Shown here: in pieces, positions 1 through 7,865 of the stretch
How the letters are laid out: each line of letters opens with the position of its first letter
How positions within the stretch are numbered: position 1 is the stretch's first letter
NCBI GenBank assembly: GCA_020692245.1
Contig: JAIMKT010000042.1
Span: 2,089-34,310, forward strand
Direction: 5' to 3'
Length of the DNA stretch: 32,222 bases
From: Microcoleus sp. GA_180221_E-2-1-MAG-45_12
GTDB lineage: Bacteria; Cyanobacteriota; Cyanobacteriia; Cyanobacteriales; JAAUUE01
Translations under genes and position numbers: made by a program
Notes under the pieces: generated by a model
Seen by the model: only the letters and a program-made list of their open reading frames with translations
Database searches by the model: none
What the model was told of the DNA's origin: nothing

Positions 1-177
1 CCGAGTAAGCGTCACCGAGCAGTGGGCAAACAGATAGGGAAGACAAACTATATTGAACGTTTTAACTGTACACTGCGTCAACGAGTTTCGCGTTTAGTTC
101 GTAAGACGTTATCCTTTTCTAAAAAAATAGAAAATCACATCGGAGCCATTTGGTTTTTCGTCCATCACTACAATTAA
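1..177 (+). CDS. IS1-family transposase, C-terminal part (cut by window edge)
   Basis: Frame 1 is open from the first base to a TAA at 175-177 and gives 58 residues. They include TNYIERFNCTLRQR, then a basic stretch ending RKTLSFSKK, and close with the WFFVHHYN tail. This is the C-terminal end of an IS1-type DDE transposase; the Glu of the IERFN motif is the expected third catalytic acid. The start lies outside the window, so completeness of the element cannot be judged. The protein would cut and join the ends of its own insertion sequence. It lies directly upstream of a truncated Uma2 gene, consistent with an insertion that broke that gene. Confidence 0.85.
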   Translation, partial: PSKRHRAVGKQIGKTNYIERFNCTLRQRVSRLVRKTLSFSKKIENHIGAIWFFVHHYN

Positions 178-203
178 TTCATCCTTACCTCTTTAGGACT
201 ACC
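1..203 (+). mobile_element. Right end of an IS1-like insertion sequence
   Basis: The transposase stop is at 177. From 204 the sequence reads as the conserved PEYWIVDY block of a Uma2-family gene. The base pairs up to 203, read on the minus strand, start GGTAGTCCTAAAG. IS1-family ends usually begin with GGT, so 203 is proposed as the element's outer edge. The exact edge is inferred: the left end and any target duplication are outside the window. Confidence 0.55.
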
Positions 204-401
204 CCTGAATATTGGATTGTAGATTATCTAGCCTTGGGCAGTCGAGATTATTTAGGCAACCCGAAAACACCTGCTGTTTTTATTTTCTTGCTAGATGAAA
301 ATGGCACTTATCAAATGAGTGTATACCGGGATGGTGATCGCCTCATCTCCCCCACTTTCCCAGAGCTAAACTTGATAGCAGAGCAAATATTGGATTTGTA
401 A
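204..401 (+). pseudogene. 3' remnant of a Uma2-family (DUF820) endonuclease gene
   Basis: The reading frame ending at 401 encodes about 65 residues starting PEYWIVDYLALG and continuing with a GNPKTPA segment and the closing motif SPTFPELNL. These are typical of the C-terminal third of the large cyanobacterial Uma2/DUF820 family, which has a PD-(D/E)XK-like nuclease fold. The N-terminal two thirds, with the earlier catalytic acids, are missing and replaced by the IS1-like element. An ATG at 150 opens this frame, but it lies inside the transposase gene. The fragment is therefore best read as a broken gene and not as an 83-residue protein. Confidence 0.7.
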
Positions 402-503: not shown

Positions 504-1433
504 CTATAAGTTTTGAGCTTGTTTTTGTAACTCTAGATAATGGTAGAGATATTCGTTGATCATGCCGTGGATGAATAGGTCTCTGGCGGCGGCGAAGGGG
601 CTGTTGGGAGCCATGGGGTGACGGTTAGAAACGATATGGTTCCAGTTATAGTCTCCGGTGACTTTACTGACGTAGAGAGCGAAGTTTTCATCAAATTGAA
701 GAGAAATTACTGCTCTGGCAAATTCATCACTGGTGAGACAGAGGGAATAGAAGACCTTGAAGAGTTCGATCGCCGACTCTAGGTCTAATATTTTGCAAAA
801 TCCCCGTTGAAAGTTTTTAATATCTAAACCCAAAGGCTGAATGCTCTCATAACTAATTCCCCGTTCTCGTAAATCTTCTAGCCAGTGAGGATTTGCAGCT
901 TGGGCTTCGTGGTAATCAATCACAAAATTATAGAGGATTAAATCATGTTCCCAAAAAGCATTATCCACTAGATCATCAACATTTTGAGGATATAAATTTG
1001 CTCTGGGCATTGTTCGATCGGGTCCATTATCAATCAAGAAATTAATTACATTTGACCCAATATTAAGATGGCGGACAATTAAATAACAAGCCTCCGGACG
1101 GACAAAATGCTTCAGGAAAAAAGCGGCGGATTTATGCATTAAATCGTAGGCATGAAACTGGAAAGGGAGTAATCGCTTCAGGGTCATAATTAACCCCAAA
1201 GAAATATTAGCCACGATCTTGATGGGGATTAATAAATAGTTTCTTGTCCAGCTTTGTAAATCCCGAATCATGTAGATTTTCGATAAGGGATCTACGGGAA
1301 TTGCTCGATCGAGATAGAGGGTATCCCAGATAGTCGGGTTGGCTCGATCGCGGGGTTGGAGTTGATACAAGCTTTCAGATTTGTTCAGGTTTTTATTCGG
1401 GTTTACATTGGGATTTATAAAGGGACTAGTCAC
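504..1433 (-). CDS. Unknown-family protein coupled to the ketosynthase-oxidase fusion gene
   Basis: I do not recognise this 309-residue protein with certainty. The start is GTG at 1433-1431, sharing one base with the TAG stop of the upstream ketosynthase gene (TAGTG). A good Shine-Dalgarno (GGAGG, complement of 1444-1448) lies inside that gene's 3' end, so translational coupling is likely. It looks mostly helical. Residues 66-90 are strongly hydrophobic and may sit on or in a membrane. No signal peptide is seen. Acid and His residues are paired along helices: Glu114 and His122, Glu162-His163, and His175-Glu176. That could be a metal site, but this is speculation. It probably acts in the same pathway as the fusion enzyme. 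Function is unknown. Confidence 0.85.
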   Translation of the reverse strand: MTSPFINPNVNPNKNLNKSESLYQLQPRDRANPTIWDTLYLDRAIPVDPLSKIYMIRDLQSWTRNYLLIPIKIVANISLGLIMTLKRLLPFQFHAYDLMHKSAAFFLKHFVRPEACYLIVRHLNIGSNVINFLIDNGPDRTMPRANLYPQNVDDLVDNAFWEHDLILYNFVIDYHEAQAANPHWLEDLRERGISYESIQPLGLDIKNFQRGFCKILDLESAIELFKVFYSLCLTSDEFARAVISLQFDENFALYVSKVTGDYNWNHIVSNRHPMAPNSPFAAARDLFIHGMINEYLYHYLELQKQAQNL

Positions 1434-3358
1434 TATTTAATTTCCTCCAGTTGCATTAGGTATAAACGGGCGGTTACTTGGGCAGTTCTGACAATGCGAT
1501 CGGCGATGGCTGGAGTCATCCATTCTGCATTGAGAATAGCATTTAATTTCCCAATATGGGCTTCATCATTGGCTCCGTGATACGCCATGAAAGAAACCTG
1601 CTCCGTAGTTAAACCTAAGCAAGATTTAATCTGTTCTGCCCACTTCGCTGCCAGATTATTCCCCAAGCCTTCAATAATAAACATACTGCCGACTAAATCC
1701 ACCGGATTTTCCTTGGATGCTTGATGGAAAATAAAAGCCGACAGAGCCTCGGAACCAATATTTTTTTCTGCATTGACTATATCTTCTAGATTACCGCCCA
1801 CCGCTACATAGTTTCGTTCTAGCATTTGATAATCTCGGTGTTCATCTTGGGCATGACCGATGAAGGTCGATCGCAACCGAAAATCAATCATATTCGAGGC
1901 AGCGCGGGCAATCCATCTCGCACCTTCCACCACTTGGGGGCGGAGATTTTTTAATAGAGATTGGTAATCTTCTAGGGTGAATTCTTGGCGATTTAGGCGA
2001 TAAATAATTGGCACATTTTGAAGTTTGCGTTCAAATTCTAACCAGACTAAAGCTAATTTTCTGAGCAGATCAGCTGAGGTAGTTTCAGAGTTATTATAAG
2101 AGGGAAGATTTGAGGAATTAACTAGTGGACGATCGAGGGATTCGAGGCTACTTTGATCTGTTGGAGGATTAGAATTAACTGGGTCTAAAATAGGCTGAGA
2201 TGAGAAAAGATTTGGGGATTGCATAGGGGAATTATCAACTACAGTTAACATCATATAGGCGGTAGTAAATCTGCCACTTTCGGGAACGAAACAAAAGATT
2301 TTCTGTCCGGGTTGAAGTTTGCCAGAATTAAAGATTTCTTCTAGCATTAAATAAATAGAAGCACAACCAGTATTGCCTCGTGTATAGAGATTTGTAAACC
2401 ATTTATCTTCAGGAATCATACAATCAGCCTTGGTGAGCAACTCGACAATTTGTCCCCGGAAAAAATGAGAGGAATAATGACAAAGGAGCCAATCAATTTC
2501 TTGGGGTTGAACTCGACCCATATCAATTAATCTCAACCAACCTTCTACTCCTAACTTGATCACATTATCTAAAAGGCGAATATTCTGCCGGAGATTCATT
2601 GCTCCAGACTCTGCTGCCGTAATATAATCTGGATAATCTAACCAGCTTTTTGTAGCCTGCTCCTCTGGGGTTCCCGCATACATACACACAGGATAGGCAT
2701 TGGCATGGGAAACTAGTTCAATCCAGTCTACTTTAAGGCTAATTCCTTGAGAATTGGGATGATTCTGCACTAGGAAAGCTCCGGCTCCATCGGAGAGCAT
2801 CCACCGGAGAAATTCCGTATCAAAGGATAATTGTTTCCCGGCTTTAATGTTAGTTTCTGCCTCAAATTTACTACTCTTAAATAGGCGAGAGGCAAACTCA
2901 GAAGCTACTGTAATAGCATTTCTTCTTTTCCCTAATTCAATCTGGGAAACTGCATAATTCAAAGCCGTCACTCCTGCACAGCAAACCCCATAGTTAGAAC
3001 TAGTTTCTAGGGGAGGAAATTCGGGCAGTTCTCCGTGTACCATACTGGCAAAACTGGGAATTAGTAAGTCTCCCCAACTGGTGGCACAGGCAAGTAAATC
3101 TAACTCTTGGGGATTAATTCCTGTTTGCATCAACACATCCCGAATTGCCAAAGCTGCCATCTGACTATTCAGATATTTAGTATTTTGTTGTTCATCGATC
3201 GCATAGTAGCGTTGTTGAATACCATTACTTTTGAGAATGCGTTGCTTAACCTTGGAAGCTCGATCGTTAATCTTCCCCAGATAGTCTTCCATGCGATCGT
3301 TACTAATCGGCTCACCGGGAAGGAATTTACCAATGCCATTAATATAAACTTGGTGCAT
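1433..3358 (-). CDS. StlD/DarB-like beta-ketoacyl synthase fused to a heme-oxygenase-like diiron oxidase domain
   Basis: Residues 1-375 form a KAS III-type ketosynthase resembling the StlD/DarB group, which makes the 1,3-cyclohexanedione precursors of dialkylresorcinols and stilbenes. It opens MHQVYINGIGKFLPGEPIS. The catalytic triad is visible as Cys127 (VCCAG), His294 (LLCHYSS) and Asn329 (RGNTG). Residues 376-430 are a Ser/Pro/Asn-rich linker. Residues 431-637 are a TenA/heme-oxygenase-like helical domain with Glu563 and a perfect H-x3-D-x2-H motif (His594, Asp598, His601), the ligand pattern of diiron oxidases such as CADD. The first-helix ligands, around Glu506-His507-Asp509, are less clear. 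An in-frame TTG at 3412 would add 18 residues. I prefer the ATG at 3358 because homology begins there; neither has a strong Shine-Dalgarno. Ring formation by the ketosynthase and oxidation by the second domain are inferred. Confidence 0.85.
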   Translation of the reverse strand: MHQVYINGIGKFLPGEPISNDRMEDYLGKINDRASKVKQRILKSNGIQQRYYAIDEQQNTKYLNSQMAALAIRDVLMQTGINPQELDLLACATSWGDLLIPSFASMVHGELPEFPPLETSSNYGVCCAGVTALNYAVSQIELGKRRNAITVASEFASRLFKSSKFEAETNIKAGKQLSFDTEFLRWMLSDGAGAFLVQNHPNSQGISLKVDWIELVSHANAYPVCMYAGTPEEQATKSWLDYPDYITAAESGAMNLRQNIRLLDNVIKLGVEGWLRLIDMGRVQPQEIDWLLCHYSSHFFRGQIVELLTKADCMIPEDKWFTNLYTRGNTGCASIYLMLEEIFNSGKLQPGQKIFCFVPESGRFTTAYMMLTVVDNSPMQSPNLFSSQPILDPVNSNPPTDQSSLESLDRPLVNSSNLPSYNNSETTSADLLRKLALVWLEFERKLQNVPIIYRLNRQEFTLEDYQSLLKNLRPQVVEGARWIARAASNMIDFRLRSTFIGHAQDEHRDYQMLERNYVAVGGNLEDIVNAEKNIGSEALSAFIFHQASKENPVDLVGSMFIIEGLGNNLAAKWAEQIKSCLGLTTEQVSFMAYHGANDEAHIGKLNAILNAEWMTPAIADRIVRTAQVTARLYLMQLEEIK

Positions 3359-3756
3359 AGTTTGTGAGTTAGAAAAGGGTTGATGTGAATAGTCGATCGA
3401 GAAGTTTATCAATCAGTTCAATCAGTTAACTTTGTGCCAGTTAATTAATTGTCTATCTTTAACCTAGGGATAGTTGATAGAGATAAACGACCCAGAGCAA
3501 TTAACTCTATACTCAATCTAGCTGCCTAACTTAGGAGAACTACCATAACCCTGTGCCACTTATTAAACTGGTTGATTATTTCTTTATAATATAACTAATA
3601 AATTTAGGATCATTTAATTAGATTAATTAGTTTGATTAGTATGAAAAATCCTGACAAAATAGAGATATGTTGAGACTGAAATAATATTGAGACTGAAGAC
3701 AATATTAGGTTTTTTGCTCTATCTAACCTGTTTATTTAGTAATTATTGTTATAACT
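3359..3756. promoter_or_regulatory. Divergent intergenic region with a direct repeat before the Coq4-like gene
   Basis: This AT-rich stretch separates the ketosynthase gene (minus) from the Coq4-like gene (plus) and must hold both promoters. The 11-mer TTGAGACTGAA occurs twice, at 3670-3680 and 3687-3697, a 17 bp spacing. The second copy is flanked by AATATT on each side. The spacing is slightly under two helical turns, so a dimeric regulator or a doubled -35-like element is possible. No convincing -10/-35 pair can be assigned by eye. No RNA gene or other coding frame is apparent. Confidence 0.4.
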
Positions 3757-4227
3757 ATGAATGAAAATATTACTCTCAGGGAAGGATTAGAAAATTATTA
3801 TGCTAGTAATCCTAACTTTACTCGAAATGCTGATATTTGGGTTGGTAATTTTCGTGTGCCTTGGCATGATTTACAACGCCATGATGTTATGCATGTGATC
3901 ACAGGTTACAGTACTAGTTTGGATCAAGAATTAAAGCTTATTGGATTTCTCTTAACTGCCTTAACTTGGCGGCGACCTTGGTATTATTATGCCCAAAGTT
4001 TTGTAGTGTTTCTAGAATTATTATGGAAATCTCTCCGAGGGCAGTCTTTTGGGATTACTTACTATCCCCCATTGCAGGTTTGTGATTATTATTGGCGGGG
4101 GGTTAAACAGGGATTAACAGTGAAGAAAAAAATCAATGCTTATCTTGATCCTCAAACAGTGATCGATCGACCCATAGCCGAACTCAGAAATGAGTATGGA
4201 ATTGCTAATGCTGGAGCTTGGGATTAG
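3757..4227 (+). CDS. Coq4-like protein
   Basis: The protein has 156 residues. It carries His42-Asp43-x2-His46 followed after eleven residues by Glu58 (RHDVMHVITGYSTSLDQE). This is the HDxxH-x11-E metal-binding signature of the Coq4 family. Coq4 is needed for coenzyme Q synthesis and has been linked to oxidative removal of the C1 carboxyl of the ring precursor. Cyanobacteria make plastoquinone and not ubiquinone, so a stand-alone Coq4 relative beside a ring-forming ketosynthase suggests work on another ring lipid; that role is inferred. A hydrophobic stretch (residues 60-95) may bind membrane or prenyl lipid. It is divergent from the ketosynthase locus. It is shorter than eukaryotic Coq4 because it lacks a targeting sequence. 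Confidence 0.75.
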   Translation: MNENITLREGLENYYASNPNFTRNADIWVGNFRVPWHDLQRHDVMHVITGYSTSLDQELKLIGFLLTALTWRRPWYYYAQSFVVFLELLWKSLRGQSFGITYYPPLQVCDYYWRGVKQGLTVKKKINAYLDPQTVIDRPIAELRNEYGIANAGAWD

Positions 4228-6746: not shown

Positions 6747-7865
6747 GTGAAGATTTATTCGCTTTCTTTCGAGACAAGTTTAAATTTAATCTCAATTTGG
6801 GATGATAGTAAGCCCGGTCAATCAGCTTTTCATGGCTTTTTTGAACAAGCTTTTAATCAAGGCTTTTCTTGGATGCCGGGCAGCGTGACATTTTATAACC
6901 TTGGGAAAACTTGTAGAGCAATTCTTGAGGTCTGCCTCCTAGAAGCAGATGAAGTATTTCATCTCCAGCCCCAAACTATTAGAGCCATTCGTGTCCCTTT
7001 TGAGGTGGCTGGTGCAGGTATTCGATACACTGATTGTATGAGTATTTTTGACGAAGCATTTGTGCCGATCCCCCCCGGATCCTATAGCCTAGTGTTTGAG
7101 AATCAATTAAACTATGATCCCGAATATTTGAATAGCCCTGCTTACTTATCAGATGTTGAGGTGGGGTTTACCTCAGAAATAATGCGGCTAAGTTTTGTCC
7201 CGACCTCAGAAGTAGTGGAGCCAGCTATTTTGAGAGCAGAGTCTTGGGGAGAACTGCCCTATCGCATAGAAGGCTACAACCCTCTAAATCCCACTTATCC
7301 CCTACTGATGAAACTTTGCTTGCTATTGCCCCGACCAGTGAACACTGGTATTACAGGGCCAGGAGCATCTGTTTTGGTGACAAATTCTAGTTCTACATCC
7401 AGCCGAGACACTTCTTTAGTTACAAATCCTACTTCTGAATCCCGCCCGGAAACCTCTGGTGGACAAAATCTTCACCAAGGATACGTGATTCACCCTGATG
7501 GAGTTGAGTTTTATGCTTTAGGTAATGCTCAAATAATTTCTGTAGAAGCTTGGTGTGCGGGAGAAATTGAGCTAGATCCAAATAGTGTGCGAGCGATAGT
7601 TGTGCCTTTCCCAATCTTGGCAGACGGCACTGGTGCTTTTGTGCCTGATGGAAGGGGTGGGGGATATTACTTAGGTGATTTGTTGGCACGGGGTTCCTAT
7701 GCACTTTTATTTGAGATTTGGTTAAACAACGACCCAAAATATTTAGATAGCGAACTCTATCAAGAGCATACCAGACTAGGCTTGACAGAAGAGTGTTGTC
7801 GCCTGACCTTTATTCCCACCACCCAGGCAGTTACCCCTGAAATACTACGATTTGATATTTATTAA
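6747..7865 (+). CDS. Protein with two tandem ComJ-like domains
   Basis: This 372-residue protein appears to be a duplication. The first unit (about 1-170) contains QGFSWMPGSVTFYNLG, RAIRVPF, IPPGSYSLVFE and ends RLSFVPTSEVVEPAILRAE. The second (about 240-372) contains QGYVIHPDGVEFYALG, RAIVVPF, ARGSYALLFE and ends RLTFIPTTQAVTPEILRFD. The motif order resembles ComJ, the Bacillus protein that inhibits the DNA-entry nuclease NucA. A Ser/Thr-rich linker (about 205-235) joins the units. No signal peptide or membrane helix is seen, so it is probably cytoplasmic. The start is GTG with no clear Shine-Dalgarno, 19 bp after the ABC transporter. The ComJ link is from memory of family motifs; nuclease inhibition is a hypothesis, and no NucA-like gene lies nearby. 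Confidence 0.7.
   Translation: MKIYSLSFETSLNLISIWDDSKPGQSAFHGFFEQAFNQGFSWMPGSVTFYNLGKTCRAILEVCLLEADEVFHLQPQTIRAIRVPFEVAGAGIRYTDCMSIFDEAFVPIPPGSYSLVFENQLNYDPEYLNSPAYLSDVEVGFTSEIMRLSFVPTSEVVEPAILRAESWGELPYRIEGYNPLNPTYPLLMKLCLLLPRPVNTGITGPGASVLVTNSSSTSSRDTSLVTNPTSESRPETSGGQNLHQGYVIHPDGVEFYALGNAQIISVEAWCAGEIELDPNSVRAIVVPFPILADGTGAFVPDGRGGGYYLGDLLARGSYALLFEIWLNNDPKYLDSELYQEHTRLGLTEECCRLTFIPTTQAVTPEILRFDIY

Follow-up and report, generated by a model that had tools for sequence, protein, structure and literature searches.

A conserved module of a StlD/DarB-like ketosynthase, a heme-oxygenase-like oxidase domain and DUF6999 in cyanobacteria and gammaproteobacteria, with a possible role in alkyl-ring lipid synthesis

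The DNA analysed here is a stretch of 32,222 nucleotides from Microcoleus sp. GA_180221_E-2-1-MAG-45_12 (contig JAIMKT010000042.1; hereafter the window), in which an earlier note, made from the sequence alone, had described a ketosynthase (KS) fused to a diiron oxidase domain. That description was borne out by the single open reading frame, the domain profiles and a structure model. One minus-strand frame (1433-3412) encodes the KS and a second helical domain. The gene most likely starts at the ATG at 3358 and spans 1433-3358 (641 residues), since the homologues begin at that Met; a TTG at 3412 would add 18 residues, and this longer frame is unsupported by homologues. The residue numbers of the earlier note agree with the ATG start. 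On the same strand, the KAS III-type, StlD/DarB-like KS domain occupies residues 1-374 (2237-3358), and the heme-oxygenase-like diiron oxidase (HDO) domain residues ~428-641 (1433-2077); the linker between them (2078-2236) varies in length and sequence when homologues are aligned. A gene for a 309-residue DUF6999 protein (504-1433, minus strand) follows directly, its GTG start overlapping the TAG stop of the fusion (TAGTG). On the other side, a divergent gene for a 156-residue Coq4-like protein (3757-4227, plus strand) is separated from the fusion by 398 bp (3359-3756), which presumably hold the promoters. The KS-HDO pair and DUF6999, sometimes with the Coq4-like protein, form a conserved biosynthetic unit for which we found no description in the open-access literature searched.

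Of 245 genomes of the order, 27 carry the fusion with at least 66% identity; it is intact in 26 of them, whereas G033 (locus L054) has a decayed locus with a broken fusion and no DUF6999. Conservation of the window fusion at 66-96% identity in 26 other genomes excludes a chance architecture. Below these matches, the order yielded only two stand-alone KSs (42%) and partial matches of the FabH type. DUF6999 was found in 25 of the 245 genomes, all of them among the 27 fusion carriers (Fisher p ~4e-32, a value that overstates the association because the genomes are related). Besides the genome with the broken fusion, the only carrier without DUF6999 is one in which the contig ends (G177); in two others (G188 and G215) DUF6999 lies on a different contig from the fusion. 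A rare fusion among random neighbours, which the earlier note had set against its own proposal, is therefore not what these genomes hold. The undescribed unit that it had proposed exists, but the interval that it gave (1433-4227) leaves out the obligate DUF6999 gene at 504-1433.

DUF6999 was also used as a query against GTDB genomes, which gave 64 loci. Wherever a cyanobacterial locus had enough sequence, the fusion adjoined DUF6999, with damaged reading frames in two cases (L128 and L129). Neither of these was accepted as a natural variant: the Alkalinema locus (L129) resembles a split of KS and HDO, but its KS runs out in frameshifted sequence and the frame of the HDO starts within the C-terminus of the KS, and the KS of L128, which at first seems to lack an HDO domain, runs into the C-terminal third of one, as expected from a deletion or an assembly collapse. 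Across the 33 lineages represented in these loci, just three genes recur in more than four: those for the fusion, DUF6999 and the Coq4-like protein. No other gene of the cyanobacterial loci recurs beyond four lineages and a wider conserved cluster was rejected; L041-L046 and L054 do share large blocks of synteny, which reflect how closely related they are.

The module extends to gammaproteobacteria. In Halomonas (L136-L138), on the THAF3 megaplasmid of Pseudoalteromonas (L139) and in two further loci (L157 and L158), KS, HDO and DUF6999 are encoded by three adjacent genes in the same order. Proteobacterial modules of this gene order were matched at 53%, 55% and 31% identity, and those of Halomonas and Pseudoalteromonas are unfused. 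Two other loci (L154 and L155) carry a KS-HDO fusion with 40-44% (KS) and 30-34% (HDO) identity to the window, directly followed by DUF6999. Since the unfused Halomonas proteins are closer to the cyanobacterial fusion than the fusions of L154 and L155 are, the two parts were probably joined or split more than once. Such repeated joining or splitting would be strong evidence that the KS and HDO activities work together. DUF6999 occurred only once without the KS-HDO pair, beside a transposase-like gene (G322); a further genome (G300) holds a decayed locus with a fragmented DUF6999 and a KS remnant.

Two neighbours outside the cyanobacteria fit a fatty substrate. In L154, the gene directly upstream of the fusion encodes a fatty acid desaturase. 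Also, a His-rich membrane protein of ~188 residues without a Pfam match directly precedes the KS in gammaproteobacterial modules (L136, 5623-6189, and L140-L143); its gene overlaps the KS start in Halomonas and precedes the KS in Pseudoalteromonas too. The cyanobacteria tested yielded no such protein. In two unrelated proteobacteria, the module has terminal-oxidase genes in its vicinity: cyoA-E are ~7 kb away in L139, and in L154 genes directly beside the module look, by eye, like those for heme O synthase and cytochrome-oxidase assembly. Two cases do not suffice as evidence and this proximity was set aside.

The KS belongs to the StlD/DarB kind and not to ordinary FabH, as the earlier note had held. 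It just passed the NCBIfam StlD/DarB family model (NF005293; 451.1 bits, cut-off 450) and ACP_syn_III_C (42.7 bits, cut-off 26.6), and reached neither the DarB-specific NCBIfam model (407.6, cut-off 550) nor the FabH model (64.7, cut-off 292.1). Its best solved relative is StlD (PDB 5gk0, E 3e-84). In a maximum-likelihood tree, in which the references did not include OleA, all StlD/DarB-type and module KSs were split from FabH with 100/100 support; a grouping with ordinary FabH, named beforehand as the result that would speak against the proposal, did not occur. A separate FabH-like gene is present in the same genome (L002). The catalytic triad given earlier as Cys127, His294 and Asn329 needs one correction. 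His294 (2477-2479, minus strand) and Asn329 (2372-2374, minus strand) were right, being invariant in 17 cyanobacterial homologues, but the nucleophile is Cys126 (2981-2983, minus strand): Cys126, His294 and Asn329 are invariant in 15 aligned KSs including StlD and distant proteobacterial enzymes, whereas position 127 (2978-2980, minus strand) is C, S, A, G or L in the same 15.

StlD/DarB enzymes close condensed acyl thioesters to an alkylated cyclohexane-1,3-dione, and are known from stilbene, dialkylresorcinol and flexirubin systems and, in cyanobacteria, from bartoloside-type ones. The module KS shares with them the NCBIfam family, the PDB match, the Cys-His-Asn triad, GNTG and PES motifs and the expectation of two acyl chains as substrates. 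It differs in falling in a separate clade, in the HDO being fused or next to it and in its constant DUF6999 partner. It also differs in lacking a DarA homologue: a single bartoloside-type DarA-like query found no match in 12 module genomes and found both of two positive-control genomes, so that the module appears to use a DarB-like KS without a DarA-type partner. DarA/DarB clusters for dialkylresorcinols have been reported in cyanobacteria (PMC8406957). Two of our loci (L058 and L059) are bartoloside-type clusters by gene content, with a DarA-like neighbour. They are near-identical, come from two small cyanobacterial genomes (G036 and G077) and encode a DarB-type KS, a DarA-like protein, a large repeat protein, a glycosyltransferase and exporter-like proteins. 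Outside the cyanobacteria, StlD/DarB-type KS genes were also seen on Prevotella and Bacteroides plasmids from human sources (L160 and L161), in each case immediately preceded by a gene for a TetR or helix-turn-helix regulator.

The oxidase domain has the heme-oxygenase-like fold of CADD and UndA, as judged from a confident AlphaFold2 model (pLDDT 91.6, pTM 0.88) built on an alignment of 21 HDO domains, cyanobacterial ones together with proteobacterial ones as distant as 30% identity. Foldseek matched this model to 3dde (TM 0.87), Chlamydia CADD (0.84) and UndA (~0.72), with E-values from 2.5e-7. By profile, the domain is close to the limit for PF14518 (‘iron-containing redox enzyme’; 30.0 bits, cut-off 28.9); relatives scored 37.7-43.8, and the Halomonas and Pseudoalteromonas copies were not detected. 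The Glu563 and H-x3-D-x2-H pattern of the earlier note was confirmed on the minus strand as the predicted ligands Glu563 (1670-1672) and His594-x3-Asp598-x2-His601 (1556-1579), which are invariant in 17 cyanobacterial homologues. The ligands of the first helix, absent from that note, are now predicted to be Glu506 and Asp509 (1832-1843, minus strand). When aligned by profile to 3dde, Glu506, Glu563, His594, Asp598 and His601 fall on identical residues and Asp509 falls on His. Asp509 is invariant in all aligned HDO members, as is His502, which lies one helical turn (four residues) before Glu506 and is a possible substitute for the first His ligand. The predicted site is thus kept but deviant: the fold and five of the six ligand positions agree with the two-metal site that had been proposed, and one canonical His is an Asp. 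It would consist of two His and four carboxylates, or would receive its His from the other side of Glu506.

Compared with HDO enzymes such as CADD, UndA, SznF, BesC and AetD and the solved 3dde, the module domain shares the fold (TM 0.72-0.87) and has Glu, Glu and His-x3-Asp-x2-His at the expected places. It differs from them in the invariant Asp at the first-His position of 3dde and in its covalent join to a ketosynthase. Only about a dozen members of the HDO superfamily have been functionally validated, and the KS-HDO join is not mentioned in the text of the 2026 review of the superfamily (PMC13108848). A search of the open-access literature for HDOs together with ketosynthases or resorcinols, and for the family names, gave nothing on this module either.

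DUF6999 is the constant partner, assigned by PF22523 (330.7 bits, cut-off 27) and by its co-occurrence with the fusion. The family has no assigned function in Pfam, and no paper on it was found in the open-access literature searched; here it is tied to the KS-HDO pair in cyanobacteria and gammaproteobacteria. A control search also gave a DUF6999 match in Caulobacter vibrioides. The protein has a hydrophobic helix at residues ~65-85, and the residues invariant across phyla include R121-H122, H163-D164, D217, D248, H289 and E294, which leads us to infer a membrane-associated, possibly metal-using partner enzyme. Foldseek returned nothing for its model (best E 1.1, probability 0.05), a result that says little because the model is weak, and no known fold was assigned. 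An HD-domain-like reading of H122, H163-D164, D217, D248, H289 and E294 was dropped as speculation without structural support. A phage origin was also rejected, as no PHROG match was found.

The Coq4-like protein carries the HDxxH-x11-E metal motif (3880-3930, plus strand; H42, D43, H46 and E58), as the earlier note had read it, and these four residues are invariant in 15 orthologues. The protein scored below the cut-off for PF05019 (16.5 against 22.9), and a profile search gave weak matches to 3msq (E 0.023) and 6e12 (E 0.035), aligned on the motif. What it shares with Coq4 and Alr8543 (6e12) is the motif and, along that segment, a weak similarity to Pfam and PDB profiles; it differs from them in length (156 against ~225 residues) and in falling below the Pfam cut-off. 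Unlike Coq4, it is linked to the KS-HDO module and not to ubiquinone genes. In the survey of the order, the gene was found in five genomes, always adjoining a module, and a survey of the phylum added two orthologues, with 68% and 57% identity, each sharing a contig with DUF6999; all seven genomes have the module. In the GTDB loci, the gene is mostly divergent and upstream. It lies directly downstream in the operon in two Halomicronema loci (L113 and L119), with a shared 4-base overlap, slightly further downstream in L090 and on the same strand upstream in L129. Linkage in several arrangements suggests a functional tie to the module. As to the co-occurrence of this gene with the 309-residue gene, which the earlier note had proposed to check, every close orthologue of the Coq4-like gene that was found comes with the module but the module mostly does without it; the linkage is real, and the defining partner is DUF6999. 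One genome (G136) has a Coq4-like pseudogene and no module.

We favour a lipid-type pathway for the module, at a likelihood a little short of even, in which acyl chains are condensed to a ring, the ring is oxidised by the HDO domain and DUF6999 completes an oxidised alkyl-ring lipid. The KS would condense two fatty-acyl thioesters from primary metabolism through Cys126, His294 and Asn329, and its product would most likely be closed to an alkylated cyclohexane-1,3-dione, as by StlD/DarB enzymes. The tethered HDO would then oxidise this product with O2 at a site in which Glu506, Asp509 and/or His502, Glu563, His594, Asp598 and His601 bind two metal ions; by aromatisation, hydroxylation or oxidative decarboxylation, it would take the place of the missing DarA-type aromatase. 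DUF6999, a helical protein with one hydrophobic helix and invariant His, Asp and Glu residues, would act on the membrane side as the obligate partner, either completing the product, accepting it or anchoring it. Human COQ4 is an oxidative decarboxylase of ring C1 that exchanges the carboxyl group on the ring of ubiquinone precursors for a hydroxyl in a single step (PMC11495197); the Coq4-like protein, where present, may carry out a further ring decarboxylation or hydroxylation of this type. This would yield a lipid resembling a dialkyl resorcinol, a hydroquinone or a quinone.

Several observations weigh against this pathway. The module KSs fall outside a clade (99/97) that unites StlD with the bartoloside-type KSs and two Bacteroidota KSs, save that L158 is its weak sister, and the proteobacterial module KSs reach only 311-414 against the StlD/DarB cut-off of 450, so that the ring-closing reaction may not be shared. 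Together with the lack of a DarA homologue, this leaves the undescribed module of the earlier note standing but makes its DarB-style ring product a matter of inference. The canonical HDO motif is E-H-E-H-(D/E)-H (PMC11363339) and that of the module is E-D-E-H-D-H, with Asp509 for the first His, which makes the number of metals and the activity uncertain. The DUF6999 model is weak (pLDDT 67.7) and the family has no solved relative. Also, the Coq4-like gene is present in only 7 of the 33 module lineages and absent from most loci, and the neighbourhood holds no acyl carrier, ligase or transporter conserved across the 33 lineages that would reveal the substrate.

A rather unlikely alternative is that no ring is formed. 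The KS would join acyl chains head to head, as OleA does, to a linear beta-keto acid or thioester, which the HDO would cleave or decarboxylate in the manner of UndA to a long-chain ketone, alkene or hydroxy-ketone. The structural neighbours do include the fatty acid decarboxylase UndA (TM ~0.72), and this alternative also draws on the desaturase upstream in L154, the position of the module KSs outside the ring-forming clade and the negative DarA search. However, the best solved match is the ring-forming StlD, with which the module KSs share a branch against FabH (100/100, in the tree without OleA), and the Coq4-like partner points to ring chemistry. If a dione is formed, the absence of a DarA-like partner means that something else must aromatise it. 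The KS could then be a functional DarB and either the HDO or DUF6999 an analogue of DarA, yielding an ordinary 2,5-dialkylresorcinol of the flexirubin or bartoloside kind. We regard this as unlikely: the KS passes the StlD/DarB cut-off and dialkylresorcinol clusters with DarA and DarB are known in cyanobacteria (PMC8406957), but the DarB-specific model was missed (407.6 against 550), the module KSs form a separate clade, and two or three extra conserved proteins exceed what aromatisation needs.

The altered metal site allows another order of events, which we consider very improbable. An unusual or mononuclear HDO, with Asp for His, would desaturate or hydroxylate an acyl chain on a carrier before condensation. 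The invariant Asp509 fits this, HDOs with altered motifs such as FlcD use other metal arrangements (PMC11363339), and a desaturase or a His-rich membrane protein also occurs in the gammaproteobacterial operon. In contrast to FlcD, which has lost two of them, the module HDO keeps all of the last three ligands, and the sequence gives no indication of the order of steps. In its most far-reaching form, the favoured ring pathway would be a cross-phylum route to a non-isoprenoid, quinone-like redox lipid. The ring made by the KS would pass to the tethered HDO, whose metal site would be of an atypical 2-His/4-carboxylate type, DUF6999 would be a new membrane-side enzyme family, and Coq4-type ring chemistry would operate outside ubiquinone synthesis. 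This full version is decidedly unlikely.

Each part of the module comes from a known family or is remotely related to one. We found no description, in the open-access literature searched, of the combination, of its conservation across phyla, of the obligate DUF6999 or of the altered HDO motif. The module provides a first functional setting for DUF6999 and a setting for a Coq4-type protein outside ubiquinone synthesis, and the HDO superfamily gains a KS-tethered member with an unusual metal motif. With two to four genes conserved in cyanobacteria and gammaproteobacteria, it is small enough to be expressed and assayed directly. Should a ring product be found, the module would hold a replacement for the DarA step and would make an oxidised alkyl-ring lipid without type III polyketide synthases or isoprenoid enzymes.

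Two other features of the window were seen in passing. Beside the module, an open reading frame at 150-401 (plus strand) is a truncated Uma2-like remnant, its match to Uma2 (PF05685) being confined to the C-terminal third (profile positions 118-169 of 172). Further along, a 372-residue protein (6747-7865, plus strand) has a ComJ match in its first half; the second half looks related by eye (RLSFVPTSEVVEPAILR / RLTFIPTTQAVTPEILR), which suggests an internal duplication.

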